DNA of 64,000 nt, taken from Acidithiobacillus acidisediminis. GTDB lineage: Bacteria > Pseudomonadota > Gammaproteobacteria > Acidithiobacillales > Acidithiobacillaceae. The notes beneath the pieces were generated by a model that worked only from the letters and a program-made list of their open reading frames with translations, had not been told where the DNA came from and ran no database searches. Location: NCBI RefSeq assembly GCF_023277115.1, contig NZ_JALQCS010000001.1:2288001-2352000 (forward strand), given 5' to 3'. Shown one piece after another: positions 1 through 17,648 of this stretch. Numbering within the stretch: position 1 is the stretch's first letter; each line of letters begins with the position of its first letter. The position numbers were made by a program, and so were the translations under genes.

Positions 1-225
1 CCATTTGTCCCCATCCCTTCCTTCAGCATCGCCATCTGCCATCCTTTCCCCATCACGTTGGGTCGGCGGCCGTGCTCCATCAACGATCATCTGGAGATAG
101 GCCTCCAACAGCAAGGTATCCAGTATCTGCTCTGGCGGCATCCGCCAGCGTTTTGCCAGCTCATTCAGGCAATGCCGACGCCAGCGGGCATCTCGTCCCA
201 AATCAAGTGGAAAAATCTTCCGCAT
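1..225 (-). CDS. Hypothetical transposon cargo protein, N-terminal part (runs off window)
   Basis: An ATG at 225 follows the stop of the PilZ gene by two bases, so the two are almost certainly co-transcribed. The 75 visible codons begin MRKIFPLDLGRDARW and include an amphipathic helix-rich segment (HCLNELAKRW, ILDTLLLEAYLQMIV) followed by a charged, Gly/Asp-rich stretch. No family is recognised and the C terminus lies outside. Tight coupling to a PilZ protein suggests a shared function, but nothing in the residues shows what. Confidence 0.5.
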   Translation of the reverse strand, partial: MRKIFPLDLGRDARWRRHCLNELAKRWRMPPEQILDTLLLEAYLQMIVDGARPPTQRDGERMADGDAEGRDGDKW

Positions 226-227
226 AG

Positions 228-1001
228 TTAGAAGGTTTTGCCAGAAAAGCGATCCCGAGCAGAGTTCACCACTTTTTTGATCTGTTCGGCCTTTTTGCAT
301 AGGTACAGGTGTTCTGCCTTCCGCTGCTGAGCCTCAGTCAGCTGAAAGTAAATACCATACAAATACGGGTAGATCGGGTGGGTGATGCGCTCCCGGCGTG
401 CTATGGTAGCAACCGTTTCACAGATCCCACACTCCGGAATCTCGAACTCCACCAATACCATCTCTCCAGGCTCCAGGATGTCCTGATCCAGGAACATCGA
501 AGCCCCCCCAGGGCTGAAGTCGTGCAGCTTGCCATAGAGCGTCCTGCCATTCTTGGCTCGCATCAGGATGTTCCCTTCGATCGGCACCCGCCGCTGCTTA
601 CGAGCGTTTCTGGCAAGCACACGGGTGGGCAGTTCAAAATGGTGCAGACCTTCACCAGAATACTTCCAGTCTGCGAAGAACCCCAAAATCCGTGGCCGTG
701 CCAGCAGAAAGATGAGCGGCTTCCGTAGCTGCGTCTCTTCACCAAGGGAGGGACCCGCCGGTTCTAGTAGAAACTCGCGCCCTTCCCAGCGCAGAAAATG
801 ACATAGGGTACCATTGTCTCCCGAATCCGGGGTGTAAAAAATGGCACTTTGCCCTTCTGCTACCCCCAGGTCTTCCGGGTTCGGCAATAAGAACTCGTGG
901 GACCCTGATAAGAATGCGAGCGGCAGGAACTCGACCAAGGGTAAGTTTCCCCGGCTAGGAAGCAGTAAAGCCAACTCCGTATCGTCTTCACTGAGAGGCA
1001 A
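228..1001 (-). CDS. PilZ-domain protein (putative c-di-GMP receptor), transposon cargo
   Basis: 257 residues. The C-terminal half has the PilZ signature: an Arg-rich RKQRR near residue 136 followed about 30 residues later by DFSPGGA, the (D/N)xSxxG motif, then a beta-rich stretch ending in YGIYFQL and an Arg/Lys-rich helix. The N-terminal 100 residues resemble the YcgR-N-type beta domain of PilZ proteins only loosely. The start is TTG, chosen because AAGGGG lies six bases upstream and no ATG fits. It lies between tnsE and a second cargo gene, so it is transposon cargo. PilZ proteins bind cyclic di-GMP and control motility, exopolysaccharide or pili; the target here is unknown. Confidence 0.8.
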   Translation of the reverse strand: MPLSEDDTELALLLPSRGNLPLVEFLPLAFLSGSHEFLLPNPEDLGVAEGQSAIFYTPDSGDNGTLCHFLRWEGREFLLEPAGPSLGEETQLRKPLIFLLARPRILGFFADWKYSGEGLHHFELPTRVLARNARKQRRVPIEGNILMRAKNGRTLYGKLHDFSPGGASMFLDQDILEPGEMVLVEFEIPECGICETVATIARRERITHPIYPYLYGIYFQLTEAQQRKAEHLYLCKKAEQIKKVVNSARDRFSGKTF

Positions 1002-1244
1002 AGCAAACCCCTTCTGGTCTATTATAAATGTTACCGTGTAGCACTATTGGAACGAGCAAGCTACTCCGTCCTTCCTGAAGTTGCAACTACCCTGACCCGT
1101 CGCAGGAATTGGGGAACAGCTGTTCCTTGCGCTCAACGGCTCCGCCCAACGCAACAGCGCCTGCTGAGGCATCTTGCAAAACTGAGGGCGCTGATACATG
1201 GCGCCATATTGTGGGCCACTGACGGCAGTAAAGCCCGTTGTTTA

Positions 1245-2894
1245 TTACCATAGCAGGGCCTTTAGCCTCTTTGCCCATCTTTTCACATAGTTCTCATCAT
1301 TCCCCTTTTTCGTCATCCGGGCGAGCTTGGGCAATCGTGTAACTGTCGCGTAGCTAGACAATTCCCATTCTGTTTTCTCATCCCACCGGCCCGAAAGGTC
1401 TACCATATTGTCCAGTAACTGCTTTACCTGCCGCTCCATATCGGCAAGGCTACATTGCCGATTGTAGCGCAGCAGCAACCCCGATAATGCACCCGGAAGA
1501 TTGTTGTGATCGACATCAAGAACTACTCTGGGGAGCTGGGTCGGAGCTGTGAACACCGCCACCAGGCAAGCGCGTGGGCCATGGCGCGAAATGGCTCCAT
1601 GACCAGCCTTTAAGGCCACCAGAGAAACCGACAAGGTCACATCGGATTGCAGCATCTCAACTTGCTGCAGCACCTTGACCAGGAGCCCAAGATCGCCGAC
1701 AGCATCCCTATTCAGAGGCTCCAGCACGGACACTTCAACGGGGGGTAGACCTCCGGCGACAGCTGTTTCCCCCATGCTAACTGGTTTGGTAACAGTCACC
1801 GGTGACAAACGAGGGTCAACCGGAAGGCCTGTAGCGATTCTTTTTTTTCGCAATCCACCCTCCTGTTGTTCAGAGGAACTTGGCCTCCTTGATCGCGAGT
1901 GTGGAGGAGACAGCACCTTCTTCACCCATGCAAGTGTCTCAAATTCTCCTCGTTTGCCACCCAGAAGAATCAGCGCTTGATTGACATCCTGTTTACTCTC
2001 CGATTGGTCATCAACCAGTTCCTCGCAAACCTGTCTGGGGCGGCTGTCGTCCAGGTTGTCTTCTTCCGATTGCTTGCTATCCTCTTCCTCCTTGGTATCT
2101 TCTCCCCGCTCTCTTTCCGAAGGGTGCGTCCAGTTGATGATTGATGCCGGCAAGCTACGGCCTGATAAGGCTAGGATTTCGAGGACCAGCCAGACCTTAT
2201 TGAGAACGACACCACGAAAGGTCACACGACAATTTTTCAGAGGTGGTGGCTCAAACATTAAGCTTCGCTCCCCTTGGCTGAGTCGTAGGACACTGTCCCA
2301 TGCCCTCCTTCCATCGGGGTGAACCGCCAACCACGCAAACTCTTTGACAAATTCAGGACGAGTCAATGCACGCGGCATACCCGCCTGAAACTCGATCAGG
2401 ATTTCTCGATAAGAACCGGGGGTTGGGGTGATGGCCAGATCCATCAGGCCCATGGGCTGTAAAATGGTATTTGCCATCACCTTACCGTGGAGAAACAAAA
2501 ATCGGATCAACTCCATCTCGGGGATCAGAATTGCCCAATCTCTGGATTGGTAGCGAAGGATGCGGTGGCTGCCGCCAGTATGTCCTCCCAAATCGTAATG
2601 CCGACGCGTCACTGCATCGTGGATTGTGACGACCTCCGGCGCGGAAAGGTCAGAAATCGTCGCTCTACCCTGTTTTCCACCCCGACGAGTGGTCAGGGCC
2701 TCACCCCCGGATACGACGAATCCCGGCATCAGAAAGGGCAACATGCCAAACGGAAGACGTCGGAATACGGTCTCCCCGTTATCGCGAAGAAACAATGCAT
2801 TAACCCACATCCTATTGTCGGAGCCTTTCGCTATTGAATTGAGCCAACGCAGCGTGAGTTCGCTCCGATCATTGGCAAATGCTCTGACTTTCAT
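1245..2894 (-). CDS. tnsE: TnsE, target-selection protein of Tn7-type transposon
   Basis: 549 residues starting MKVRAFANDRSEL, with the ATG overlapping the tnsD stop (ATGA). Length is close to the 538 residues of Tn7 TnsE, and position at the end of tnsABCD is the classical one. TnsE of Tn7 binds the beta clamp and 3'-recessed DNA ends and directs insertion into replicating mobile elements such as conjugating plasmids; this is known for the family, not shown here. A low-complexity acidic and Ser-rich linker (EREDT..EEEDSKQSEEDNLDD type, near residues 260-300) separates an N-terminal half from the conserved C-terminal half. Identification rests on context, length and general resemblance, since TnsE diverges quickly. 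Confidence 0.82.
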   Translation of the reverse strand: MKVRAFANDRSELTLRWLNSIAKGSDNRMWVNALFLRDNGETVFRRLPFGMLPFLMPGFVVSGGEALTTRRGGKQGRATISDLSAPEVVTIHDAVTRRHYDLGGHTGGSHRILRYQSRDWAILIPEMELIRFLFLHGKVMANTILQPMGLMDLAITPTPGSYREILIEFQAGMPRALTRPEFVKEFAWLAVHPDGRRAWDSVLRLSQGERSLMFEPPPLKNCRVTFRGVVLNKVWLVLEILALSGRSLPASIINWTHPSERERGEDTKEEEDSKQSEEDNLDDSRPRQVCEELVDDQSESKQDVNQALILLGGKRGEFETLAWVKKVLSPPHSRSRRPSSSEQQEGGLRKKRIATGLPVDPRLSPVTVTKPVSMGETAVAGGLPPVEVSVLEPLNRDAVGDLGLLVKVLQQVEMLQSDVTLSVSLVALKAGHGAISRHGPRACLVAVFTAPTQLPRVVLDVDHNNLPGALSGLLLRYNRQCSLADMERQVKQLLDNMVDLSGRWDEKTEWELSSYATVTRLPKLARMTKKGNDENYVKRWAKRLKALLW

Positions 2895-4711
2895 CTCTCC
2901 CCTCGGTTCTGGGCAGCGAAGAGAGCTGTCTCCACTACCTTTGCACACTGTTCCGGCAGGCCGGCCAATCGGCGTAGCCGCCAGGCTTGGACAGGCAATC
3001 CCTGCCGGCACAATTCTGCATCGGCCCAAGCAATGCGCCGACATTGGAACGCAACCTCATTTTCCGTCACCTCGTCCAGGATTGACGCGCACAGCGGCAA
3101 TTTGTGTAGCCGCTTCCCCAGCCAACCTCGTCGATCCAGAGCGCGCTCCAATGCGGCACGGGTAACCCGAACCGGAGGGAGATGAGCCAACAATTTATCT
3201 GCTTCGCCTCGCAAAAACTCTGCAGTTTGGGCGTCTACATGTGCCCAGTTGATGCGCGCTCTGTTGTTTCTCAAGGACCTGGGCAAAGGTGGCTGGGACC
3301 CCAGCCACTCCCGGTCATAGCGGTAGAGCCACATATACACTGCAGGCATCCGCTTACGCAGTTCCTTTCGGGTAAGGCTCCGCTCTGCACAATACGCTCG
3401 ATTCCATCGTTCACGCATGGTCATGCGGTCGGGAGGCGGCAATGTGACTTGCTTTGGCAAGACCTTCCAAGGGGTCGTCAACTCCAGTCGAGCGACGTAA
3501 CGCAACACTGTCCTGGTGTCGACATGCAAGGCCTTGGCAGTACCGCGCAAACTGGTCCCGGAAATAACTAGTTCGCGCAGTCGGCTCTCGAACAGAGGGC
3601 CAAAGTTCAGGATTCTGGGACGACTATCGGGATGTGCCGCTCTGCTGAACGCGTAGCCACAGGTGCAACGGAACACTCCAATGATTTTCCTTTTTTCCGC
3701 ATGGAGTTGGCATTCGGCGATCATTAGGTGCCCGTAATGCTCGGCGAGCGGATTGCAACAGGGCCAAGGTCCGTCGCCGAATGGGCGAAGCTCCGGCACC
3801 AAGGGCCGAGAATCGATCAGCAGACGAATCAGAATATGGCGTAGTGGGGCAAAAGCGTGACGGTGTTTGCGTGTGATGGCTTCCAGCCACCCGTCGGGTA
3901 TGGCTTCCGGTAAGACATCGATGACCGCCCCAAAGCGGGCATAGTAGGAATGCAGCAGAGCGGATTGATCGATATGGGAGTTACCGCGACCGAACCCCCG
4001 CGCCCGCAACGCGGTCCGGTATTCCCGACCCCAGCTGTGCAGTGGAAGCGGATTTGGTGGTGCGATCAAAAGAGCGACGCTGGCCTTGGCGATCTCGAGT
4101 AGCCGTGCAGCAACGTTTGCGCGATCTGACCAAGTTGGCAGATTTGGATTGGCTGGGCAATTGTTCTCATCGGCAGCGATGAATTCATGTTGACCAGTAT
4201 GCGAGAGAATCACCCGGCTATCGACGAGTGGCACGGCATGAGTTGGGCAAACCAGTACGCCAGGAAGTTGATGGTCGCGCCGCCAGTAGAGTTCGCCGTA
4301 CTTCTCCAGCATCTCCGTGCGGTAAGCCGGACAATACCGCAGCGTGGTAGTAAGGTTCACGGAACTAGCGACAAGCCCCAATCTGATATACAGGGTATCG
4401 GCATCCCCGTTTTCACCCATCAGAACACTTAGCGCCCAGTCACGGACATCAGGCGTCGAAAAAGCTGTGAGATAGGGCAGCAAGGTGGTTTTGTGCGCCA
4501 ACCGTTTTGAAGTCAATTGGCGCCGAGCCGGTAATCGATCAGCGAGACAGTTCAATTCCGTCTGCAGAAACACTCCTGCACGAACACTCCGGTGCCCAAA
4601 AAACTCCTCCAGAGCAAGCTTCGGGCTTTGCCATCCGCTGTGGCGGCATGTTCGTGCCAATAGGCTATATAGCAGCTCCTCCGGATGCAGCGCGGGCAGG
4701 TACGTCAACAT
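2891..4711 (-). CDS. tnsD: TnsD/TniQ-family target-site selector with altered zinc finger
   Basis: 606 residues. The N-terminal TniQ region starts LPALHPEELLYSLLAR, as in TnsD. The zinc finger that is Cys-Cys-Cys-His in E. coli TnsD (124, 127, 152, 155) is present in the same spacing at C127, Y130, C155 and H158, so the second Cys is Tyr (codon TAC, one transition from TGC). A second Cys-rich cluster (CCNP, then FRCTCGYAF) lies near residues 315-355, followed by an HTH-like segment (SLRGTAKALHVDTRTVLRYV, about 385-405). TnsD of Tn7 recognises the attTn7 site at the end of glmS. The gene is in frame throughout; whether it folds without the fourth ligand is open. Confidence 0.9.
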   Translation of the reverse strand: MLTYLPALHPEELLYSLLARTCRHSGWQSPKLALEEFFGHRSVRAGVFLQTELNCLADRLPARRQLTSKRLAHKTTLLPYLTAFSTPDVRDWALSVLMGENGDADTLYIRLGLVASSVNLTTTLRYCPAYRTEMLEKYGELYWRRDHQLPGVLVCPTHAVPLVDSRVILSHTGQHEFIAADENNCPANPNLPTWSDRANVAARLLEIAKASVALLIAPPNPLPLHSWGREYRTALRARGFGRGNSHIDQSALLHSYYARFGAVIDVLPEAIPDGWLEAITRKHRHAFAPLRHILIRLLIDSRPLVPELRPFGDGPWPCCNPLAEHYGHLMIAECQLHAEKRKIIGVFRCTCGYAFSRAAHPDSRPRILNFGPLFESRLRELVISGTSLRGTAKALHVDTRTVLRYVARLELTTPWKVLPKQVTLPPPDRMTMRERWNRAYCAERSLTRKELRKRMPAVYMWLYRYDREWLGSQPPLPRSLRNNRARINWAHVDAQTAEFLRGEADKLLAHLPPVRVTRAALERALDRRGWLGKRLHKLPLCASILDEVTENEVAFQCRRIAWADAELCRQGLPVQAWRLRRLAGLPEQCAKVVETALFAAQNRGER

Positions 4712-4714
4712 AGA

Positions 4715-6337
4715 TCAGCATGGACCGAATTGTGGGCGGCGGATCAGCCCGGCAGCTATCAGCGATTCTTCGGCATTTCGCCCAACCTCCTGGCCCTTTC
4801 GCACCATGTCCGAGATCCTGGATACTGCTAAAGGTTTGCGTGGTACTTGCTTTCCTGATGGGCGTTTACCCTTCCTTGGCACCGCATTCCCCGGATCTTG
4901 TAACAAAACAGAGACGAAGCCGATAAGTTCCAGCATCGAAGCATCAGGGTGCAGGGCTCGAACCTTGGCGGCCATCGGTGTGGCAAGGTCTGTTGCCAAC
5001 CCGGCCTGCACCAAAACACCGATCAGCGGGTCGACATCGCCCGATTCCCCGCCCTTTCCAGAATCCAAGCCCGGCATGGATAGCGAAATGGTCTCCATTT
5101 GCGGCATAACATTCTGGAAAACCTGTGAAACGTGGCTATCCAAGGGTCGCAAATCGTCATACTTGCTAATCTCCCGCTGATTATTGGTCTTGAGCGCTCT
5201 CATCATTGGTTCGATGATCTTGAGGTGCCTCGCAGATGTCTCGCGGAACAGTCGCGCATCCATCACCTCGGGTGTGTTGCGGAAAGCGCTCTGCTCCATC
5301 ACCTGAAGTTGCGCCAACATAAACAGCTTGATCAGTACGTCAATGACCCCCTGACTTTCCTCGTATAAAACATAGCGGATCTCGTCTGTAAGCGGCGTTT
5401 CTTGCCGCGTCCATTGGTATTTCCACAAGACGTCGACGAAGTGGTCCCATGCTGACTCTGGCCGCAGGCGCTCCCAGACCGCGCACCCGAGGCCATTGGC
5501 GCGACGGGCTTGCCGAAAGTCATCCTGGAAGAGGGACAGGGCCCCCATCGTCCCAATCATAATTACCGGAATACCGATGGTATTGATGAGGGTCACCAAG
5601 AAGTTCAGTAAAGCATCCCGCCCCACTCCCTTGGCCAAGGTCAGATGTTGTATCTCGTCAATGATGAGCACGCCAAGTGCATGGCGATTTGCGAGTTGCG
5701 CCATCTGGGCCATCATCAAGTCCACTGGATTGCGCGTTTTGCCAAACTGGGCAAACGTTCGTGTGCCCAGGGCCAAATCAAGCTCCTGGAAAAAATGCAT
5801 GCAGAGCTGCTTCGGTGAGCCCTGGTGAGGACAGTCGAGCTTGAGCCAAACCACCTGCTGAAGGCTAAAGGGTTCGTCATGCGTAACAACCTGCGGGTAG
5901 TAGCTCAAAATCCGATTGATCGCAGTGCTTTTACCCGCCCCTGAGGCTCCAATGAGCGCAAACCCTTCCGCAGTTCCTCCAACATAATGACGTCCCGCAC
6001 TGAGATCGCGGGCGAGGATGCGCTCATGGCCATCTTGCAAGCGCCAGATGTAATCTGACTGCAAGGGATTGCGGCTGACATAACCTTGGCGCAACAGGGT
6101 GGAAAAAGCTGATTCCAGCCGCAGGTGGTGTTCCAGGGGCTCGAAGAAGCGGCGGAGCCGATACAGGCAATTCATTCGGAGTTGGATTGGGTAGGTCCGC
6201 TCCTCAAGGTTAAACTCCGGCGGGTCAGACAGAAACTGCCAAGCATTTCGCTGTGAGAGCTGCGGCGGTAAGCGATTGATGAAGGGGTTGTCCCGAAACT
6301 CCGGCAGAAGAGGGGGGGCGGTCGGGGATGAAGCCAT
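4715..6337 (-). CDS. tnsC: TnsC, AAA+ ATPase regulator of transposition
   Basis: 540 residues, close to the 555 of Tn7 TnsC. Walker A is GASGAGKST at residues 130-138 and Walker B is LIIDE at 224-228, followed by IQHL. TnsC forms ATP-dependent rings on DNA that connect the target selector (TnsD or TnsE) to the TnsAB transposase and mediate target immunity. The gene starts six bases after the tnsB stop and ends three bases before tnsD, within the single tns operon. The C-terminal 130 residues are less conserved, as expected for the region contacting TnsA and TnsB. Confidence 0.93.
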   Translation of the reverse strand: MASSPTAPPLLPEFRDNPFINRLPPQLSQRNAWQFLSDPPEFNLEERTYPIQLRMNCLYRLRRFFEPLEHHLRLESAFSTLLRQGYVSRNPLQSDYIWRLQDGHERILARDLSAGRHYVGGTAEGFALIGASGAGKSTAINRILSYYPQVVTHDEPFSLQQVVWLKLDCPHQGSPKQLCMHFFQELDLALGTRTFAQFGKTRNPVDLMMAQMAQLANRHALGVLIIDEIQHLTLAKGVGRDALLNFLVTLINTIGIPVIMIGTMGALSLFQDDFRQARRANGLGCAVWERLRPESAWDHFVDVLWKYQWTRQETPLTDEIRYVLYEESQGVIDVLIKLFMLAQLQVMEQSAFRNTPEVMDARLFRETSARHLKIIEPMMRALKTNNQREISKYDDLRPLDSHVSQVFQNVMPQMETISLSMPGLDSGKGGESGDVDPLIGVLVQAGLATDLATPMAAKVRALHPDASMLELIGFVSVLLQDPGNAVPRKGKRPSGKQVPRKPLAVSRISDMVRKGQEVGRNAEESLIAAGLIRRPQFGPC

Positions 6338-6343
6338 GATGAT

Positions 6344-8491
6344 TTACTCCTCTTCCTGCTCGGCTTCGCGAAATTTCTGCAGCATCTCCGTGATATCCGG
6401 CAGGCTGTAGTCCTTTGTGGGTGGAGCGCCAGGGAAAGAAACAACCTCGGCAGGGACGTCCGTCTTCATACTTGTCGTGCGCGTTGCGTCCTTATGACGT
6501 AAGGCAGCCAGTTCCGCGCGACGGTTACCACGGATGTCCTTGGTTCTTTGGCGATCAGACCGATCAGAAACCAGGGGAAGCCGTGCTTTGGCATCGGCAA
6601 CGACCCGTTGAATTTGATCGACCAGATTGATACGTCCAGTTGTTTCGCTACGCTGGTGGCTATGAGCAACCTCCTTCGATGCCTGCCGTAATTGGTCGAT
6701 CTCCCATAGAGTCTTGCATGCATGCTCGCGGCTTTGCTCCATAAGGGTACAAGCGATGAACTGCGGTTGCCCAGACTTCCCCTGCAACCATATAGCATCC
6801 ATACAACGCGGATCATAAGAAACACGGACCCGCCAATTTCGAATTTGGCGCGCACGTTCAAACCAATGCTCTTGCATGGCAAACGAACAGGAGTAATACA
6901 GCCCGAATAAACGGATACCTCTGGCGGTTACCATCGCGTCCGCATGTGGTAACAGGCTAAGGCGCACGATCTCATCCGGGTAGCGACGAAGCCGACCGCT
7001 ACGGTGCGAAATCCCCCAATTCCATAGCTCGATCGGAACAGCTGGAATTGCATCATGAATTATCTCTGGAGCAAGCGGGTACTCCTTGACCCGATGCTGG
7101 GTATTATAGTACTTTACACAATAAATCAGGATCTTGGTAAACTGATCAATATTTAGTTTCGCGTCCAAGCGGTAGTCGTTACCCCCACGCTCCCGATAGT
7201 CTGTCTGAATATACCCAGGCGTATAGGCCTTGAATCTCGCAGGCAGCAGGCGAAACTGTTGTTCTACAACCCCCTTCCAGTCGGCACGGTATGGAGCTGA
7301 ATTCTCTATTCGGACGGCGAAAGTCTGAATCAGCGTTTCGATCATCTCGCCAACCATTTCTCCGCGGTCGCCCAGAATTGCCTCCGGCATGCCTTGGCAC
7401 GGCCAGTCCGCAGTGTCGATAGCAACACCAAATTGGGCGCAGTAGTCCGTTTTATCGAGCACGGCGTTGCCTAACGCCTGCATGGCGCCGACCCAGCTCG
7501 GCCCCTCGAATCCCACGTGTAACCCGGCGATCATTCGACTGAATACGTCTATGACCACATACACCACGGGTCGACCGACGATTTTGTCGGGAAAATAGCG
7601 GGAGACGAGATAAATATCCGCAATCGTCGCGTCGATGAGGTAACGCGAGCCCGGGCCAACAGCCTCCCCCGTTGCCGTGCTGGTCAGAGCGCGCATGTCC
7701 TTGTCATAGACGCGTGAAGATGCCCGACGACGTTTGAGCGCAAAAATGTCGTTATCTTTCTGATACCAGTAACGAAACTGCCACCAGCTTGGCGCGCCCG
7801 AGCGCAAAACCCATTCCTGCTGGCCGGTGCCGGGGTCTACCACCGAATCCGAAAAAGAGGCACGCAGCATCGCGTGGTAACACTCCGTAAGCTCAAAAAC
7901 CGGATGCATGGCATAAAATCGGATGACGGCCGCCTTGAAAATCGCGCGCGTTTCCGGCGTGACATTGACGGAGTTCCCGTCGTTCTTCGGTGGTCGTCCA
8001 CGACGCTTGCCAGTGGCAGCGCGTTCCCGGCCACGTGCGCCGGAATTGGCGTAATCGGGCAGCAGAGCGTTCGGTGTCATGCCGCGCTGCCAGTAACGAC
8101 GCAACAACCGCAACAGGCTGTGATGACTTTCCCCATGAGTGGAAGAAAATTCAGCAAGGATTTTGCCGCGCTTGCGGAGATCAAAGATCTCCGGCTGTCG
8201 CTGCAGAACCGGAGCGATCCGAGCAAAGTTTTGGTCGCGCTTAGCCCGTTGTGCAGCAGAGAGCCGGCCTTCATTCTTGTTGATGAGCAAGGGATCTTCT
8301 TTGCCTAGTTGGACAGCACCCTCATCCAGCAGGCGAATCACATCGGCGTGACGTCGGTACAGCGGGTTGGAGTGCTCAGCATGAATGTCTATGCAAACAT
8401 AGCCCGGGTCGCCCGCGTCGATCCACAATACCCGCTCGGTGTGCCCGTCCTCGGAGAATTCCAACAGTTGGTTGAGGGCAAGAAAGCTCAT
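6344..8491 (-). CDS. tnsB: TnsB, DDE transposase subunit
   Basis: 715 residues (Tn7 TnsB has 702). The start is the ATG overlapping the tnsA stop (ATGA), giving MSFLALNQLLEF; longer readings run into tnsA. The retroviral-integrase-type catalytic triad is visible as D287 (LIDATIAD), D375 (ILGDRGE) and E410 (GVVEQQ), with the D-to-E spacing of 35 that also holds between D361 and E396 of Tn7 TnsB. TnsB binds the end repeats and performs 3' strand cleavage and joining. An Arg/Lys-rich linker (GKRRGRPPKN, 161-170) lies between the N-terminal DNA-binding region and the catalytic core. Confidence 0.95.
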   Translation of the reverse strand: MSFLALNQLLEFSEDGHTERVLWIDAGDPGYVCIDIHAEHSNPLYRRHADVIRLLDEGAVQLGKEDPLLINKNEGRLSAAQRAKRDQNFARIAPVLQRQPEIFDLRKRGKILAEFSSTHGESHHSLLRLLRRYWQRGMTPNALLPDYANSGARGRERAATGKRRGRPPKNDGNSVNVTPETRAIFKAAVIRFYAMHPVFELTECYHAMLRASFSDSVVDPGTGQQEWVLRSGAPSWWQFRYWYQKDNDIFALKRRRASSRVYDKDMRALTSTATGEAVGPGSRYLIDATIADIYLVSRYFPDKIVGRPVVYVVIDVFSRMIAGLHVGFEGPSWVGAMQALGNAVLDKTDYCAQFGVAIDTADWPCQGMPEAILGDRGEMVGEMIETLIQTFAVRIENSAPYRADWKGVVEQQFRLLPARFKAYTPGYIQTDYRERGGNDYRLDAKLNIDQFTKILIYCVKYYNTQHRVKEYPLAPEIIHDAIPAVPIELWNWGISHRSGRLRRYPDEIVRLSLLPHADAMVTARGIRLFGLYYSCSFAMQEHWFERARQIRNWRVRVSYDPRCMDAIWLQGKSGQPQFIACTLMEQSREHACKTLWEIDQLRQASKEVAHSHQRSETTGRINLVDQIQRVVADAKARLPLVSDRSDRQRTKDIRGNRRAELAALRHKDATRTTSMKTDVPAEVVSFPGAPPTKDYSLPDITEMLQKFREAEQEEE

Positions 8492-9330
8492 GCCCGGTTC
8501 TCCTGGCGTCCGCCAGGCAGCGTGCGGAAGGACGCCATGGTGATCAGCGGGTCGCTCAGCACCACTGACTCCATATCGCAAAGAACCGACTTGGTCGCCA
8601 GAAGGTGTCGGAACAGCATCAAACCCTCTTCGCTGCCCAGACCCAAGCGGACTTCCATGTCCCCACAAAATTGTCGCAGCGACAACCAGGGGGAGGCGCT
8701 GACTTGTGCCCGCATTCGGCGTCCAGCGTCTTGGTAGAAGCCCGGGTGCGGTTCGACAAGGCCCTCCAGGCGGTAGAAATTGTGAACCCACTCAATATTA
8801 CGGATCAGTTGGGTCGGAAGAACGGCCGGGGTGACGATGCTCCACTCAATTTCCTTTCTTTCCCAGTAGTGCCTTTCTATTTCCAACTTTTCCAGTGTTC
8901 TGGGCTGGTCGAGATCCTTGGCGGATTTTACGGCATAGGCCGTTTGCACCAATTTGCCGCCGGCGCAGGCATCGACCACAAAGTCCGTGGTCATAACCAT
9001 CGGTGTCACCATACCCGGGAAGCGGGGGTGCGGAATATTGCAGGCTTCGGCAATCTGGGAGGTCGCGGATCGGTCCAAGGGGAACTGTTCCCGAATATCA
9101 GCGACCGAATCTTCCCAATCCAAGCAGTAGAAGAGGCTTCGTTCAATGTCAGAGAGCAAATGGTGTATGCGCCCGGTATGAATCCCTCGGAGGCGGGTAC
9201 TCCGCCCCGTTGACGGCACGTCCTGAATCGCCAACCAGGGTTTGTAGTCCGCGCCGACACCTCTGCCCCGTCCCTCTTGCTCAAACAGGGCAATCCGCTG
9301 TTCGTCGATAGTGTAACGGCGTCGGGCCAC
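8488..9330 (-). CDS. tnsA: TnsA, restriction-like endonuclease subunit of the transposase
   Basis: 280 residues (Tn7 TnsA 273). TnsA cuts the 5' ends so that Tn7 moves by cut-and-paste. Visible active-site candidates are E63 (DIERS, same number as E63 of Tn7), D116 in TTDFVVD, and K135 in AVKSA. In Tn7 TnsA the catalytic Gln lies two residues before the Lys; here that position is Ala133. First gene of the operon; the leader up to 9403 must hold its promoter, with TnsB-type repeats directly upstream, which implies autoregulation by transposase binding, as proposed for Tn7. Confidence 0.92.
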   Translation of the reverse strand: MARRRYTIDEQRIALFEQEGRGRGVGADYKPWLAIQDVPSTGRSTRLRGIHTGRIHHLLSDIERSLFYCLDWEDSVADIREQFPLDRSATSQIAEACNIPHPRFPGMVTPMVMTTDFVVDACAGGKLVQTAYAVKSAKDLDQPRTLEKLEIERHYWERKEIEWSIVTPAVLPTQLIRNIEWVHNFYRLEGLVEPHPGFYQDAGRRMRAQVSASPWLSLRQFCGDMEVRLGLGSEEGLMLFRHLLATKSVLCDMESVVLSDPLITMASFRTLPGGRQENRA

Positions 9331-9403
9331 AGTGCCCTCCCCGGATCGAGACTACCGAAAGTTCACGCTACTCCTCACCATCGGAAATGGCAACAGCTGT
9401 GAG

Positions 9404-9463
9404 CAAACTTTATTGCCCATGTCCAAACTTTATTACCCATGATCAAACTTTATTGCCTGCGAA
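9404..9463. repeat. Three 20-bp direct repeats, putative TnsB-binding sites at the transposon end
   Basis: Copies start at 9404, 9424 and 9444 with exact 20-bp periodicity. The shared core on the plus strand is CAAACTTTATTGCCCATG (second copy A for G at one position, third copy diverging after TTGCC). The array lies between tnsA and the inferred transposon terminus, as do the 22-bp TnsB sites of Tn7, four of which are packed at its right end. The match to TnsB-site function is by position and arrangement. Confidence 0.8.
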
Positions 9464-9642
9464 CACAATCCGCTGCCTTCCACGAAAGACAGTGGATTGC
9501 GCCCTCTGGTATCCGCATCGGCCCGATAATCCGTCTTGTGCTTCTCCTTGCGGCTATACACCTTTCGGTCCCGCTCCACCTTGGTCGGCAGAACCCCCAT
9601 CCGCACCTTGAGGCGCGGGAGTTTTCCTCGCAGCTTTTCCAT
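9433..9642 (-). CDS. Small basic protein, C terminus apparently replaced by transposon end
   Basis: 69 residues starting MEKLRGKLPRLKVRMGVLP, preceded by a strong ribosome-binding site (GGAGGTGAACA directly before the ATG). The first 45 residues are Arg/Lys-rich, and no defined domain is recognised. The last ten or so codons (SQAIKFDHG and neighbours) are encoded by the TnsB-site repeats of the Tn7-type element, so the original gene was probably cut by the insertion and now reads into transposon DNA. It could remain functional if the lost residues are dispensable. Confidence 0.5.
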   Translation of the reverse strand: MEKLRGKLPRLKVRMGVLPTKVERDRKVYSRKEKHKTDYRADADTRGRNPLSFVEGSGLCSQAIKFDHG

Positions 9643-9816: not shown

Positions 9817-10323
9817 CTAGAACTTCACGCGAGGGCGAGATGGTACATCAAAAGGCACCACGAACGGGATCTCGTCGTCGAAATCCATGGGAGCGGCATG
9901 ACCACCACCGCCACCGGAACGGGCAGGCGCGGCAGATGGAGCAGAACCAGCCGATGCGCCCGCACCATCATGCTCACCGCCAGTTCCACCACTGCGTCCG
10001 CCAACCAGCTGCAAACGATCGCCGATGATCTCGGTCGTGTAGCGATCCTGGCCTTCCTTATCGGTCCACTTGCGCGTCTGCAGCTTCCCTTCGATGTAGG
10101 CCATACTTCCCTTTTTCAGGTACTCGCCAGCAACCTCGGCGATGCGCCCGAAGAGCGCGACTCGATGCCACTCGGTATTTTCTACCTTGTTTCCATCTTT
10201 ATCCTTGTAGGTTTCCGACGTTGCAATTGCCAGATTGGCAACTGCCTTACCGTCGGGCATATACCGCATCTCGGGGTCCCGCCCCAAGTGGCCCAAAATG
10301 ATTACACGATTTACACCTGCCAT
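9817..10323 (-). CDS. ssb: Single-stranded DNA-binding protein (mobile-element copy)
   Basis: 168 residues. The OB fold is evident in the first 110 residues ([64 protein letters not shown]), followed by a Gly/Ala/Ser-rich linker. SSB normally ends in an acidic tip DDDIPF that recruits other replication proteins; here DFDDEIPF is followed by 14 more residues ([14 protein letters not shown]). The start ATG has AGGAG ten bases upstream. Island and plasmid SSBs protect transferred single strands; neighbours are DNA-processing genes. Confidence 0.95.
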
Positions 10324-10356
10324 GACTGCATTCTCCTAAAAATGAAACACCAAGAC

Positions 10357-10380
10357 GGTATAGCGCCGACCCATGGCGAC
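10357..10380 (-). promoter_or_regulatory. Box B promoter element upstream of ssb
   Basis: Minus-strand CGCCATG-N7-GCTATACC, about 35 bases before the ssb start. The terminal GCTATACC resembles a -10 hexamer (TATACC). The same arrangement occurs at 15777-15800 and 18254-18277. Confidence 0.55.
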
Positions 10381-10391
10381 AAGAAAAAAGG

Positions 10392-10658
10392 CTATTCCGT
10401 CAGGTATCGGCGGATATCCGAGCCAGGAACATTGCGCCCTGCCTTTTCCCGACGCCCAGCGCACTCCACACAACGAACCGCATGGACAGCTTCTACGCGC
10501 GCGGGAGGGATCGTGTCTCCACAATCCAGGCAGTACCGGCCATGCTCATCTTCATCTGGTTCTTCCACATCCACAGCAATACGCAACCGTGCGATTGCCG
10601 CTTCCCGTTCCGCTTCCTCAAAATGGGAAGCGATGTCTCCCTCATCCCCCTGTAACAA
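10392..10658 (-). CDS. TraR/DksA-type C4 zinc-finger protein
   Basis: 88 residues. The C-terminal half has the four-Cys finger of the family (CLDCG near residue 43 and CVEC near 63) after an acidic helical N terminus (EEAEREAAIARLRIAVDVEEPDEDE in two parts). TraR proteins of conjugative elements and phages bind RNA polymerase through the secondary channel and imitate DksA with ppGpp. The start is TTG, with AGGAGG six bases upstream, placed just behind the stop of the 55-residue ORF, so both are co-transcribed. Function is by family only. Confidence 0.85.
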   Translation of the reverse strand: MLQGDEGDIASHFEEAEREAAIARLRIAVDVEEPDEDEHGRYCLDCGDTIPPARVEAVHAVRCVECAGRREKAGRNVPGSDIRRYLTE

Positions 10659-10667
10659 AGGTGCCTC

Positions 10668-10835
10668 CTAGTATCGAATGACAAACTTCACCAAAAACAA
10701 ATCACGCCCTTGCTGCGCCAGGCGCTTGCAGATTTTTGCTGCACGGGTCTTCGGGCGAAGTTTCATCCCCAAAGACTTTGAATACAGACTACCACCAGCA
10801 AACTCCCGAATCTCGTATAGCGTCTTGCTTTTCAT
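10668..10835 (-). CDS. Hypothetical 55-residue island protein
   Basis: Starts MKSKTLYEIREFAGG at an ATG with GGAGG five to eight bases upstream; a longer in-frame reading to 10910 lacks such a site and crosses box A. The protein is basic, with an Arg/Lys-rich middle (RPKTRAAKICKRLAQQGRD). No family is recognised. Its stop is followed at once by the ribosome-binding site of the TraR/DksA gene. Confidence 0.6.
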   Translation of the reverse strand: MKSKTLYEIREFAGGSLYSKSLGMKLRPKTRAAKICKRLAQQGRDLFLVKFVIRY

Positions 10836-10876
10836 CAGCGTTCCTCCAAACAATCGTGATGCTTCGCCTATCCTAA

Positions 10877-10894
10877 GCGCAGATTGTCTCGTCA
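10877..10894 (-). promoter_or_regulatory. Box A island motif, copy 2
   Basis: Minus-strand TGACGAGACAATCTGCGC, one difference from consensus, 41 bases upstream of the 55-residue gene. Preceded by T, which makes TTGACG, a good -35 hexamer, but no convincing -10 follows at 17 bases (GATAGG). Confidence 0.65.
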
Positions 10895-10913
10895 AGACGG
10901 AATATTCCACCAG

Positions 10914-12602
10914 CTACGCAACATGCTCCAATAAAAGACTGGATTGCGCACCTTCAGCATGATCAATAGAGGCATTCCAATCCATGTGGTAGCCAAGCTC
11001 TTTTTGCGTGCTTTCCAGTGCTTCGGAAATTTTTTCTTCTTTGCTTTCCTTGCCCTCCCATCGAGCAAGAGATACCCGCTTCATGGCCTTGTCGGAGATC
11101 TTCTCCGCATCCGCATACTGTGCCCAGAAGCCTTCGTTCTCGCCCCCCGGAATCCAGGACCGGGCACGGCCAACCAACAGATTCAGCCGGTCAATGAGGT
11201 CAGGGCGCGTTGGGAAGAAATGGATCGTACCGATTCCTGGGTAAAACCGTACATCCATGTACGAACAGGAAACTCTCTCTCCGTCGCGCAGGTTTTGAAA
11301 GCTGCTCGTCCCCTCTTCGAATACCGATTCCAGAGAAATTTCCGGTTCCGTTTTTCCGTCGAGAATAGCAAAGGCACGATCCAGATCTTTCAGACTCTGC
11401 ATTTCGCTCCAACCAAGGCCACGCCTCCACCCCTCCAGAGAGAATCCACCAAGGATGAAACGCTTGTTGCGAATCCGCATGCCTACCCGGTGCTTGGCGT
11501 TGGACTTCCAGGGGCGATAAAAGGCGACGTTCTCCGTTCCCTGTCGCGTGATCCGGTCGAACAGGTCCAGGCAGATGTCCAGGTGGATATCGCCTTGCGA
11601 CTCGGCCAATCCCTGCAGGAATCCATAGATGTTAGGCAAACTGAACTCCAGCTTCGAGATATGGGAAAACTCCGCACGGATTCGATCGACCGCCTTGCGC
11701 GTCAGATACTTCTCTGTCTCTGTTGCCATAAGAACCGCCGTCCAAGCCCGCTCTTTCAGGCCTTCGTACGTTTCTGCAAGGTGCTTCTGCATTGATGTCT
11801 TGCCAGAAAATCCAGTCTGCACGCGAATATTGGGGCTTTCCTTTTTCTCCGCGTTGCTCACCAGATCGGCAAGCTTGAGTCCCAGCATCCCGCGGAAGTA
11901 ATCCGCCCGCATCCGTGGGCCCACTGTAGCCAATTCAGCCTGCCAAGCCTCCTGGAAGGCGATCACCAGGTTTTTGATAGTTTCTCCGCGCAGGGCGATT
12001 TTCCCGCCAATCTCAAAGTCCACGGCCTCCGGCCCCGCATCTTTTTTGAGTCCATCCAGAAAATCGGTGCTGAAGCAGCCAGCCTCTGGCGTTTTCTTGA
12101 GCCAAACAAGGGCCACTTCCACATCGGTTTTGCGCTGTGTATCTGGGTCCAGAAAGGCCGATTTCTCGTATCGCACAGACCCGTTCTTCTCGACCAGCTT
12201 CACCAGCCGTTCGCGTTTCTCGCTGAACGGGTTGCGGATCGTCTCAGCATTGAGAATGGCGACGATCTCGCCAGACAGCAGCCCGTCCCATGCATACAGA
12301 ACGTGCTCCGCTCCATTCCGGAATGGGGGATTCATAATAATGTGCGAATACATACTGAGCCCGCCCATTTCCAGAAAATCCACACCAACCACGGTCCCCT
12401 TCTCTCGCAAAGCGGCATGTCGTCTCAAATCGATTTCTGCAGCATGGATACGATCATTCCGCAAGTCGTAGGGCTTCGCATCCAGCAGGTCGCCGTTGCC
12501 CGCCGACGGCTCAAGAACCAGAAGGAAATCCCGGTCTTGGAACAAGGACCATGCAGTACGGGCAAGATTTTCTGGTGTTGGGTAAAATTGCAGATTTTCC
12601 AT
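10914..12602 (-). CDS. N6-type DNA methyltransferase with DUF4942 domain
   Basis: 562 residues. The N-terminal 170 residues form a class I SAM methyltransferase: motif I EPSAGNGDLL at 31-40 and catalytic NPPF at 91-94, typical of N6-adenine or N4-cytosine methylases. The C-terminal half matches the DUF4942 pattern common in mobile-element methylases (VAFYRPWKSN, RNKRFILGGF, DLDRAFAILDGK, MDVRFYPGIGTIHFF). No restriction endonuclease gene is adjacent, so an orphan methylase that protects the island from host restriction is the likely role. A box A copy lies 40 bases upstream of the ATG. Confidence 0.85.
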   Translation of the reverse strand: MENLQFYPTPENLARTAWSLFQDRDFLLVLEPSAGNGDLLDAKPYDLRNDRIHAAEIDLRRHAALREKGTVVGVDFLEMGGLSMYSHIIMNPPFRNGAEHVLYAWDGLLSGEIVAILNAETIRNPFSEKRERLVKLVEKNGSVRYEKSAFLDPDTQRKTDVEVALVWLKKTPEAGCFSTDFLDGLKKDAGPEAVDFEIGGKIALRGETIKNLVIAFQEAWQAELATVGPRMRADYFRGMLGLKLADLVSNAEKKESPNIRVQTGFSGKTSMQKHLAETYEGLKERAWTAVLMATETEKYLTRKAVDRIRAEFSHISKLEFSLPNIYGFLQGLAESQGDIHLDICLDLFDRITRQGTENVAFYRPWKSNAKHRVGMRIRNKRFILGGFSLEGWRRGLGWSEMQSLKDLDRAFAILDGKTEPEISLESVFEEGTSSFQNLRDGERVSCSYMDVRFYPGIGTIHFFPTRPDLIDRLNLLVGRARSWIPGGENEGFWAQYADAEKISDKAMKRVSLARWEGKESKEEKISEALESTQKELGYHMDWNASIDHAEGAQSSLLLEHVA

Positions 12603-12641
12603 CGTTTCCCCGCCATCAATTCTGAGTCAGATTCACCCTTG

Positions 12642-12659
12642 GCGCGGATTGTCTCGTCA
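12642..12659 (-). promoter_or_regulatory. Box A island motif, copy 3 (exact)
   Basis: Exact TGACGAGACAATCCGCGC on the minus strand. Its first three bases are the stop codon of the upstream uracil-DNA glycosylase gene, and its end is 40 bases before the methyltransferase start. Confidence 0.7.
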
Positions 12660-13286
12660 GCCGGGGATCGTTGGTTTTGCCCGCAGGAAACTCGCGGCTT
12701 TCCGTACCACTTCCTCTCCGATTGCGCTCCATTTGCGGCCATCTGGAGCATTGCGGTTCCACGCCAGTGGGCTTGTGTGGGGCATGGCGTAGAGCCGTGC
12801 CCCACGAGGCCAAGCCGCCCGCAAATCTTCCCGGTACAGGCATGCGGCTTTTTGGGGGTCGTGGCCATTGGCATCCAGTGTCCCAATGTTGCTCTCCAGT
12901 TTCGCAATTCCCGTCAGGGCAGCAATGGCTGTAGCCCCGACGGTCAGCACCACTTCTGGCCTTGCATTGGCAATCGTCCCTGCCAGATAGGGCAGGCAAT
13001 TCGCGATTTCCTGATTCGTCGGCTTCCGATTCCCCTCTGGCCGACAGCGCACGATATTGGCGCACCCATAGTCATAGCCGCGTCGCAAGCCGTATTCTTC
13101 CAGCAGGCGATGTAGGGTCCGCCCTGCCCTGCCTACAAAGCCCTTGCCCTGAGCGTCCTCATCGGCCCCTGGCGCCTCGCCAATGACCAGCAGGCGACAG
13201 GAACGACCAAAATCTGGCAGGTCCGGCATGACCACTTGGGTGCGAGAAGCACAAAGGGACGGGCAACGAGTGCAGTCGCTAATCAT
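12657..13286 (-). CDS. Uracil-DNA glycosylase, family 4/5-like iron-sulfur type
   Basis: 209 residues from MISDCTRCPSLCASRTQ. The N-terminal Cys pair (CTRCPSLC) and later cysteines (NIVRC, NCLPYL region) fit the 4Fe-4S ligands of family 4 enzymes. Catalytic motif A is IGEAPGADEDAQGKGFVGRAG (split: IGEAPGADED, GKGFVGRAG) and the C-terminal motif is HTSPLAWN. The enzyme removes uracil arising from cytosine deamination, or dUTP misincorporation. The ATG overlaps the end of the upstream membrane-protein gene, so it belongs to the operon starting at the helicase. Confidence 0.88.
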   Translation of the reverse strand: MISDCTRCPSLCASRTQVVMPDLPDFGRSCRLLVIGEAPGADEDAQGKGFVGRAGRTLHRLLEEYGLRRGYDYGCANIVRCRPEGNRKPTNQEIANCLPYLAGTIANARPEVVLTVGATAIAALTGIAKLESNIGTLDANGHDPQKAACLYREDLRAAWPRGARLYAMPHTSPLAWNRNAPDGRKWSAIGEEVVRKAASFLRAKPTIPG

Positions 13287-13650
13287 GATGATCTTCCCGC
13301 AATGGATGATCGATAAAAAATATGATCCGGTCCAATTCACCCCAGGTTGGGTGCCGCTCCTGGCCGCAGATTGCAACCCAAGAGCACCGTACCGCATCGA
13401 ACCTGGATGCTTCACTGCGCAAGATGTGCATGGCCGCATCGCTTACCGGCTGATCGCTCCAAACCACCCGCACCAACCAAAGGATTGCGGTAATGCAGAG
13501 CAGGGCAACACCAAGGCCCAAAATGACCGCGCTCCAAGGATGCAGAAAATCTCTCTGGTACCCGGTAATGACACCCATACATCCAAGGGTAAAGGTGTAA
13601 ATCTCAATCCACGGGAACGGCGCGTGTGGGCCGGGAAAGGTGTATCTCAT
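13279..13650 (-). CDS. Small integral membrane protein, unknown function
   Basis: 123 residues from MRYTFPGPHAPFPW. Two hydrophobic segments are clear, about residues 15-35 (IEIYTFTLGCMGVITGY) and 42-65 (AVILGLGVALLCITAILWLV), followed by a soluble C-terminal tail of about 55 residues. The ATG overlaps the previous gene's stop (ATGA), with GGAGC upstream. No family is recognised. Confidence 0.65.
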   Translation of the reverse strand: MRYTFPGPHAPFPWIEIYTFTLGCMGVITGYQRDFLHPWSAVILGLGVALLCITAILWLVRVVWSDQPVSDAAMHILRSEASRFDAVRCSWVAICGQERHPTWGELDRIIFFIDHPLREDHHD

Positions 13651-13832
13651 GAAAGAAGCTCCAACAGAGTGCGATGATCCTCTACCGCAATCCACAGCGC
13701 GGCTATAGTGAGCCAAAAGCTCTCGGCAAACATGGCAGCATCATTATCCATAAGGCCCTGCATACCTTCGCCCAAGGCCAGAGAAAGGCCAGTCATGGTG
13801 CAGAGCAGGCGGAGCAGGACCATCGTAGCCAT
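13647..13832 (-). CDS. Small membrane protein, 61 residues
   Basis: One or two hydrophobic segments (MVLLRLLCTMTGLSLALG and ESFWLTIAALWIAV). It starts one base after the stop of the zinc-ribbon gene and overlaps the next gene by four bases, so translation is coupled. Unknown function; conserved packing with neighbours is the main evidence that it is real. Confidence 0.55.
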   Translation of the reverse strand: MATMVLLRLLCTMTGLSLALGEGMQGLMDNDAAMFAESFWLTIAALWIAVEDHRTLLELLS

Positions 13833-13833
13833 C

Positions 13834-14187
13834 TCACAAATCTTTCACAGATGGCCACTTCCGCCGTATTTTCCCTTCTCGGTCACCACCGCACCGCTTG
13901 CAGAGGCCTGTTTCCTTGGCGCAGTCTCGGCACAAGATATCAGTGGCCGTGCTGCTGTAGACCTGCTCCTTTCCACAGCACATGCACGGCTCTGTGGTGA
14001 TAGCTTGCCCACCAATGCAACTGCCGTAGTAGCAGATTTGGCATAGGCCAGACTGTACCCGATTCTGATGCTCTGGGTCCGTGCGCAGCTTGTCGGCAAA
14101 GTCGATAGCCCGCTGCATACGGTCTTTCGATGCGCGGGTCCAGGATTCCATATTGGCTGCGCTCATGATCCTGCGTTTACGCTCCAT
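13834..14187 (-). CDS. Cys-rich zinc-ribbon protein, unknown function
   Basis: 117 residues from MERKRRIMSAANMES, chosen because GGAG lies seven bases before this ATG. The C-terminal half has four CxxC-like pairs (CQICYYGSC, CMCCG, CRDC, CKRCG), suggesting two zinc ribbons. It follows the helicase gene by 18 bases in the same operon. No family could be named. Confidence 0.65.
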   Translation of the reverse strand: MERKRRIMSAANMESWTRASKDRMQRAIDFADKLRTDPEHQNRVQSGLCQICYYGSCIGGQAITTEPCMCCGKEQVYSSTATDILCRDCAKETGLCKRCGGDREGKIRRKWPSVKDL

Positions 14188-14205
14188 CACAATTCTCCAC
14201 AGCAT

Positions 14206-15723
14206 TCAAACCCTCAACCCTGCATAATCCGTCGGCTGCCTAAGCGTATGGATTGCACGAGTCTTGGCGACATATAGCAATCGCTTTTCCTCATCACTCT
14301 CAAGCCTTTTCTTGTTGAAAAGGCCATCAGAAAGACAGACGGAATCGAACTCCATCCCCTTGCTTTTGTGAGCCGTAATGACAATACGATCACAGGACTT
14401 CCATGCATCCTTGTCGCCATCCAGATCCACAGAGGAATCCATGACGGACTGCAGCCCGTCAACGCCATAGTCGTCGACCAGCTTCAACAACATCTTGATA
14501 TCGTTTCCTTCACTTGACCCCGCGTGTTCTCGTAACTCATCCTCTGACTTGAAAAGCGCGAATTGCCCTGATGGCTCACCATCCACCAGTTTCTGATAAT
14601 CTCGGAGGAAAGCGCGGATTCCGGCTTTCCCACTAACACCAACCCGCTGCTTGTCAGACAATCCACTCATGGCTCGGTCGATGGCCTCGGCATTGGTGCG
14701 CACAATGGTGGCACGCGAAGCCTCAGTAGATTTGCCAGTGAACACTTTTGATGTTCTGTCCGGGCGTCCCTCCAGAAAGTATTTTGCCCCCAAGCTCTGC
14801 AACACCTGGTTTGCGTCGTCGGCCACCGCCTGCCCAAAGCGGAAGCTCATGGTCAAAGGCGTCTCCGGTAGATCGAGAGACTGCATGGCGTTCTTCGCCC
14901 CGCGCCACTCGTAGATCTGCTGGAATGCATCACCCACATAAAAAACCGGGATCTTCTGTGCCGTCGTCAATAGCAACATCAGTCCGTCAGCATCTTGCGC
15001 CTCATCAAACAGGATGTAGTCGTAGCGAAAGCCAGCAGCGTTAAGTTTTGGGGACGAAAGCACGAATTCCCGAAGATAGAGGTCATGCGTCACGGGGAAA
15101 TCACTTTTAGGATTGAGCATTTCCCCCAATGCCCGCTTGGCAAGTTCTATAGCCTGATCGCGAATCTTGTAGCAGGTTTTGCAGTTTTGCTCGTTCTCTG
15201 CCAGCTTCTGGTTGATCTCGGTTTTGAGGCTCTGGTTCTCACCACAAGAGGCAAAGATTGCCTCCAATTCCCGACGCTCAGCGAAAATGGCCTTGCAGGC
15301 ATCATTCCATGCCACGTGTTCCTTCGTAATCTGTGCATCCGAGGTGCGCAGAAACCTGGAGAGAGTGCCTAATGCCACTTCCCCTATGGCGTAGCTGTAA
15401 TCTCCGGTGACCCCGAATCTGGAGCGAAGGTAGGAAGCATTCAGGCGCTTGTTCAGTCGGGCGCCGTATTTGCGTCCAAACCCCGCAAAAGCCAGCGAGT
15501 GAAACGTCCGTGCCTGGCATGCAGAACCCTCGAACTTCCTTTGTGCCTCTGTGGCGATTGCCTTGTTGAAAGACAGGTAAAGCCCCCGCTTTTGCCCGAG
15601 TTCCTGCGCAATCGCGGCGAGAGTGGTGGTTTTGCCGGTCCCGGCCAGGGCAGAGACCTTGAAGCTCTGCATTTTCTTGGCCATGGCAACCGCCTTGCGC
15701 TGTTCTTGAGTAAGGGCAAACAT
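14206..15723 (-). CDS. UvrD/Rep-type superfamily 1 helicase
   Basis: 505 residues. Q-motif-like N terminus (LTQEQRKAVA), Walker A ALAGTGKTTT at about residues 29-38, motif Ia FNKAIATEAQRKF, motif II DEAQDADGLML near 265, motif III GDAFQQIYEWRGA, and a C-terminal motif V/VI region (VITAHKSKGMEFDSV, KRLLYVAKTRA). Shorter than UvrD (about 720), with reduced 2A/2B domains, as in FBH1-like and mobile-element helicases. It is the first gene of the operon; box A and box B lie 90 and 55 bases upstream. Role in island replication or repair is inferred. Confidence 0.88.
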   Translation of the reverse strand: MFALTQEQRKAVAMAKKMQSFKVSALAGTGKTTTLAAIAQELGQKRGLYLSFNKAIATEAQRKFEGSACQARTFHSLAFAGFGRKYGARLNKRLNASYLRSRFGVTGDYSYAIGEVALGTLSRFLRTSDAQITKEHVAWNDACKAIFAERRELEAIFASCGENQSLKTEINQKLAENEQNCKTCYKIRDQAIELAKRALGEMLNPKSDFPVTHDLYLREFVLSSPKLNAAGFRYDYILFDEAQDADGLMLLLTTAQKIPVFYVGDAFQQIYEWRGAKNAMQSLDLPETPLTMSFRFGQAVADDANQVLQSLGAKYFLEGRPDRTSKVFTGKSTEASRATIVRTNAEAIDRAMSGLSDKQRVGVSGKAGIRAFLRDYQKLVDGEPSGQFALFKSEDELREHAGSSEGNDIKMLLKLVDDYGVDGLQSVMDSSVDLDGDKDAWKSCDRIVITAHKSKGMEFDSVCLSDGLFNKKRLESDEEKRLLYVAKTRAIHTLRQPTDYAGLRV

Positions 15724-15776
15724 TTCATCTCCGCTTCGTTGTCCTGCAGACGTAGTGCAGGCTGCCTACCAGTTAC

Positions 15777-15800
15777 GGTATAGCAACTAGCCATGGCGGC
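15777..15800 (-). promoter_or_regulatory. Box B promoter element upstream of the helicase
   Basis: Minus-strand CGCCATG-N7-GCTATACC with an extended -10 (TTGCTATACC) located 55 bases before the helicase ATG; box A lies a further 14 bases upstream. Confidence 0.6.
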
Positions 15801-15813
15801 CCGCTCAACTACT

Positions 15814-15831
15814 GCGCGGATTGTCTCGTCA
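15814..15831 (-). promoter_or_regulatory. Box A island motif, copy 4 (exact)
   Basis: Exact TGACGAGACAATCCGCGC. Start-to-start distance to the TATACC hexamer of box B is 49 bases, a position suited to an activator site upstream of the -35 region. Confidence 0.7.
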
Positions 15832-15869
15832 GAGATGAGGTGGAGACCCCTTGTGATACTAGACGATCA

Positions 15870-16271
15870 TCATTCAATTTCAATATTTTTGATGATCTTC
15901 CTCTTGATCTCAGAGATAAACCGGCCTGCACTTGCAATGTGCTCATGCGCGCCTACTTTGTCCAAAGAGTCATAGCTGTAGTCGGCAACCAATCTTGCAC
16001 TTTCAGCCCTGGTCAGGATTTTACTCATTTCAACGCCAACTTTCCCAGTCTTTACAAAGTGCCTGGAAAACTCAGAGATCAAACCACTATGAGACCTAAT
16101 ATTTTCCGCTCCCTGCACTCTCTGATGAATCAAAGCAGCTTTTGCAGCGTCTAGCATTGCATAGTACGCACGATTTACCGAACCATTATAGTCTTCGGCA
16201 TTATACAGAGTTATAGCAGACTTGAATGCTACATCAGCTTTGGACATAAGCTCATTAGATAAACTTTTCAT
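15870..16271 (-). CDS. HEPN-domain protein of an MNT/HEPN toxin-antitoxin pair
   Basis: 133 residues, helical, with the family's NRAYYAMLDAAKAAL stretch near residue 33 and HSGLISEFSRHFVKTG near 62, then a second helix pair (LTRAESARLVADYSYDS). HEPN proteins are usually ribonuclease toxins or their relatives. The start overlaps the nucleotidyltransferase stop by four bases, the standard layout. Its coding sequence is clearly richer in A/T than its neighbours, which suggests separate acquisition. Whether the RNase motif is intact cannot be judged safely from the sequence alone. Confidence 0.85.
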   Translation of the reverse strand: MKSLSNELMSKADVAFKSAITLYNAEDYNGSVNRAYYAMLDAAKAALIHQRVQGAENIRSHSGLISEFSRHFVKTGKVGVEMSKILTRAESARLVADYSYDSLDKVGAHEHIASAGRFISEIKRKIIKNIEIE

Positions 16272-16624: not shown

Positions 16625-16697
16625 AACCAAGCCTGTGACACCAGTAGCCGTCTCTCATTGTACCGCGAAATCAATATTCTCCCTACAAACGAAGTCT

Positions 16698-17636: not shown

Positions 17637-17648
17637 CAAAAACCTCTC

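Follow-up and report, generated by a model that had tools for sequence, protein, structure and literature searches.

The TnsD protein encoded by a Tn7-like element of Acidithiobacillus acidisediminis carries a Tyr at the position of the second Cys of its zinc finger, a change that, by sequence comparison, is derived and private to one genome and that likely represents an ordinary, recent loss of function. The change lies in a stretch of 64,000 nucleotides, referred to here as the window, which corresponds to G000:C1:2288001-2352000 in a 2.8-Mb genome (G000) that shares its genus with Acidithiobacillus sp. YTS05. The element is a standard two-pathway Tn7 relative carrying TnsD and TnsE and occupies 27.8 kb in total (G000:C1:2269657-2297465). 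The features inside the window are the following:

Window 1-9465: portion of the element inside the window (end mapping).
Window 1245-2894, minus strand: tnsE, 549 aa (profile comparison, tblastn and a weak Pfam TnsE_C match).
Window 2891-4711, minus strand: tnsD, 606 aa, with TniQ and TnsD domains (Pfam TnsD 5e-74, TniQ 5.5e-19; phmmer to 8glu 5.2e-26).
Window 4322-4324, minus strand: TnsD codon 130, TAC (Tyr), at the second zinc-finger Cys position, TGC in relatives (sequence comparison).
Window 4715-6337, minus strand: tnsC, AAA ATPase, 540 aa (Pfam AAA_22, TniB).
Window 6344-8791, minus strand: tnsB transposase, 815-aa reading frame (Pfam Mu-transpos_C; aligns locally with the TnsB of an E. 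coli Tn7-like element).
Window 8488-9330, minus strand: tnsA endonuclease, 280 aa (Pfam TnsA N- and C-terminal domains).
Window 9400-9465, minus strand: right end of the element, TGTTCGCAGGCAATAAAG, with three TnsB-type repeats (end comparison).
Window 9466-9470: CAATC, the tnsA-side copy of the 5-bp target duplication, whose counterpart precedes the left end at G000:C1:2269657.
Window 9817-18175: right flank in the island, with an ssb-like gene (from sequence), DUF4942, UDG, UvrD and PLD-nuclease genes (domain matches).

The assignment of the element to the Tn7 group derives from its tnsABCD operon, from a tnsE gene placed after tnsD, and from repeat-bearing ends flanked by a 5-bp duplication. 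The genes tnsA, tnsB, tnsC and tnsD follow one another in this order on the minus strand, all four with Pfam matches, and the whole tnsABCDE set is open; the true start of tnsB probably lies within the 815-aa frame. The ATG of tnsE at position 2894 overlaps the tnsD stop codon as ATGA and was preferred to the start at 3044 given by a mechanical list of reading frames. It is known that TnsE proteins diverge strongly (PMC10293859). Comparison of the tnsE product with two annotated TnsE proteins by hhalign gave a probability of 98.4 (E 9.8e-15, 484 columns), tblastn matched it to an annotated TnsE with an E of 8e-4, and the Pfam TnsE_C match was weak and below the cut-off (E=0.0075); two sequence searches of the PDB returned no TnsE entry. 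The left end lies 18.3 kb to the left of the window, and each end of the element carries three TnsB-type repeats. Joining of the two flanks indicates that the insertion affected just the end of a short reading frame. Among the cargo are PilZ, GGDEF/EAL, MFS transporter and chemoreceptor-type genes.

At the level of the zinc site, codon reading gives C127, Y130, C155 and H158 as the ligand positions of TnsD, that is, CYCH in place of CCCH. The protein aligns with E. coli TnsD (PDB 8glu) across the N-terminal half, and the phmmer alignment sets its motif in register with the RYCPDC...CPKH of the E. coli protein, so that the four positions correspond to C124, C127, C152 and H155 and Tyr130 falls on Cys127; the sequences make this register clear. 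Tyr130 is real in the assembly. In the sister tnsD of strain YTS05 (G007) codon 130 is TGC within a surrounding stretch, CGGTATTGTCCGGCTTGCCGC, that is otherwise identical, and the substitution is consequently a single G-to-A transition. A preliminary description of this DNA had read the motif as CYCH at the E. coli spacing, its Tyr codon as one transition away from TGC, the rest of tnsD as open and the TnsE gene as intact, and all of these readings hold; codon 130 also lies within the interval that it gave for the motif, 4319-4345.

The same description had equated a Tyr restricted to a single strain with a recent loss, and the alignment of TnsD homologues corresponds to that case. CCCH was found in 37 of the 38 distinct TnsD/TniQ sequences, nearly all from Pseudomonadota, that were readable at every one of the four ligand columns; the sole exception is the sequence of the window, and none of the 37 other natural homologues carries Tyr at the second ligand. 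These 38 were drawn from 41 rows, after setting aside a misalignment (L104) and a broken gene with only the first two ligands readable (L025) and after counting once two rows, L067 and L075, that cover the same stretch of one genome. Cys occupies position 130 in the TnsD of YTS05 (99% protein identity), of G003 (76%), of G017 (57%) and of a 44%-identical group. When the tnsD changes were polarized with G003 as outgroup, just one non-synonymous change, C130Y, fell unambiguously on the branch of the window. The tnsD dN/dS is 0.60 between the window and YTS05 sisters, as against 0.15 to G003, the sister figure coming from only 13 codon differences on both branches. This raised value fits with relaxed constraint, as a ratio that mixes both branches over few changes and falls short of statistical demonstration.

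The expected effect of losing this ligand can be gauged from E. coli TnsD, in which Ser in place of any of the four ligands left 0.05 of wild-type attTn7 binding and less than 0.001 of wild-type transposition (Mitra et al. 2010, PMC2918618). For C127S in particular, binding was 5% and transposition below 0.1%, a zinc chelator strongly lowered binding of the E. coli protein, and rare attTn7 insertions were still seen with the Ser mutants (PMC2918618). These data cover the change of Cys to Ser, not to Tyr, which is the larger residue. By analogy, C130Y would be expected to deprive TnsD of zinc binding, and attTn7 homing by the window copy is probably dead, since the E. coli Ser mutants fail and Tyr, the larger residue, occurs at this ligand in none of the natural homologues examined. 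This would leave TnsE as the remaining route. The earlier proposal that attTn7 targeting may have been lost or altered is thus strengthened by a single-genome change at a ligand essential in E. coli Tn7, whereas the dependence of the window copy on TnsE, which it also put forward, is something that we infer from the probable loss of homing. A second TnsD with CCCH, 44% identical to that of the window, is encoded in the same genome (2089939-2091729). Help in trans from this protein seems unlikely on sequence grounds because the element-like end close to its gene differs in sequence. In the TnsD-family search, three further loci (G000:C1:1989491, 2030746 and 2083048) gave identical scores and lengths, with weakly matching 525-aa frames, and are perhaps copies of one TniQ-bearing element.

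The location of the element is a conjugative island. To its left lie genes for a VirB4-type ATPase, TrbL/VirB6, thin-pilus-type ATPases with T2SSF and secretin, and ParA/ParB, and ordinary chromosomal genes start again near 18.7 kb of the window. A. caldus is known to harbour integrated elements that carry genes for type IV secretion (PMC3826726). No empty CAATC island site was found in 57 relatives; a near-identity search of plasmids gave no match to the tns region, neither did protein and end-pattern searches of viral contigs, and no further strain with this element was found. Several other features of the region were recorded. A T2SSE-type ATPase of the island (G000:C1:2260615-2262657; L038:12615-14657) has internal Hint and LAGLIDADG matches and, judging from these domains, probably contains an intein with a homing endonuclease. 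The PLD-type nuclease of the right flank (window 16698-17639) matches the PADLOC models for DrmC, a DISARM-type component, with values of up to 5e-25. A second and different tnsA/tnsB pair is present at G000:C1:2208160-2211195 (L127:160-3195), beside parAB and hydrogenase/Mrp-like genes, which means that no fewer than two Tn7-like elements have entered the region.

The glmS gene of the host maps far from the element, at G000:C1:386269-388098, and the window copy is not inserted directly downstream of it, a site that TnsE insertions do not need. At the host attTn7, 25 bp past the last sense codon of glmS, nothing of a Tn7-like element was found beyond a 25-bp right-end relic (G000:C1:386219-386243), which is the sole remnant of an earlier occupant. 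In YTS05, G003 and G017, element ends lie 28-30 bp past the last glmS sense codon. The order in YTS05 (NZ_CP094359) is glmS, CGACA, element A (69364-95588), CGACA, element B (95594-126584) and CGACA, and the DNA past the third CGACA leads to the same downstream genes as in the genome of the window. Element B, which carries the Cys TnsD, therefore belongs to a tandem array at glmS; a reading of it as a copy lying off attTn7 was rejected because of the three CGACA duplications and because the neighbouring element has its left end there. Tn7 as a rule inserts next to glmS, so that element B presumably arrived first and A later. In G017 an element end is likewise found at glmS, and part of tnsB and tnsC is apparently missing. 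In G003, whose TnsD has Cys, an element end is found at glmS (C35), and a copy (C23) adjoins genes for DotH/IcmK, TrbI, DotM and a TraG/TrwB-type coupling protein. The locations in G003 and YTS05 show that the family follows both Tn7 lifestyles with an intact TnsD. Moreover, the tns genes of the window and YTS05 sisters are 97-99% identical while their hosts share 76.5% at glmS, so that the element has recently moved from one lineage to another. An IS110-family element (356-aa transposase, Pfam Transposase_20) was also noted in YTS05 in six copies (C1:94022-99930 and 123584-126584; L040-L042), most of them with a boundary at the same spot within the TnsB-type repeat (AATAAAG) of Tn7-like ends. 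It looks as if this element targets such ends; some IS110-family elements target the ends of Tn21.

The most probable explanation, and the one favored here, is that a standard Tn7-like element underwent a recent C130Y change that ended homing, left the TnsE and island routes in place and has not yet been purged. TnsE is credited with steering Tn7 into conjugating DNA (PMC11406308). Of the two target selectors, TnsD would direct the element to the end of glmS and TnsE to conjugating DNA, and the element would have reached the island through the usual TnsE pathway, with tnsD being hit by the point mutation afterwards, or just before, at little immediate cost. In analogy with E. coli C127S, the mutation would abolish attTn7 binding and TnsD-driven transposition, and movement by TnsE or carriage by the island would persist, as no damage is apparent in TnsA, B, C or E or at either end. 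A copy on a conjugative island has no immediate need of homing, and this may be why selection, presumably relaxed, has not yet removed the Tyr. A more far-reaching version, in which a Tn7 relative has dropped homing by one ligand mutation and spreads only via TnsE and the island with its mutant TnsD kept open, is doubtful.

It is unlikely that TAC is a sequencing or consensus error for a true TGC. The change is a single transition in a single assembly, and the genome offers no second copy of the element for comparison; nevertheless, the assembly looks good here, as all tns genes are full length and open with no frameshift, and private changes in the neighbouring genes occur at an unremarkable rate. 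The possibility that the Tyr came first, with a dead TnsD leaving only TnsE-type insertions and the island location as a consequence, is about as unlikely. It agrees with the earlier suggestion that dependence on the TnsE route fits the island position, and the contrast between a Tyr copy in a conjugative island with its CAATC duplication and a Cys sister at glmS speaks for both. However, the Cys copy of G003 also adjoins conjugation genes, so that a copy can take up such a position without the Tyr, and only one Tyr copy is known, which makes the order of the mutation and the island jump unreadable. The link between Tyr130 and the island is thus weaker than the preliminary description held. 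It is very improbable that zinc is held well enough for homing by the three remaining ligands with the help of Tyr or an adjacent residue: the remainder of tnsD is open, with 98.5% identity to the sister gene, but in E. coli TnsD every Ser replacement of a single ligand cost about 95% of binding and over 99.9% of transposition (PMC2918618), and Tyr is absent from the other natural homologues examined.

Under the favored explanation, a recent C130Y loss in an otherwise standard element, the window provides a naturally occurring equivalent of an engineered TnsD mutant, together with a near-identical sister at attTn7. The matched pair formed by the window and YTS05 copies offers a way to ask how much a Tn7 element living in a conjugative element gains from homing; should the change be no more than a chance loss or a base-calling error, it would have little importance. 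Compared with the laboratory C127S mutant of E. coli TnsD (PMC2918618), the window protein has lost the same ligand, although the E. coli change is a Ser introduced by design, for which alone assay data exist, whereas that of the window is a natural Tyr. The closest relative is element B of YTS05, with 99% identity in TnsD and 96.5% nucleotide identity over about 23 kb, which differs in having Cys130, a place in the tandem array at glmS and IS110-family insertions in its ends, in contrast to the Tyr130 and island location of the window element. With E. coli Tn7 (TnsABC+D / TnsABC+E) the window element shares the gene order tnsABCDE, a TnsD with TniQ and TnsD domains, a TnsE, the 5-bp duplication, TGT...ACA-type ends with repeated TnsB-type sites and, in its relatives at glmS, a right end adjoining the gene. 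It departs from Tn7 in its Tyr second ligand, its location off attTn7, its signalling and transport cargo and a very divergent TnsE.
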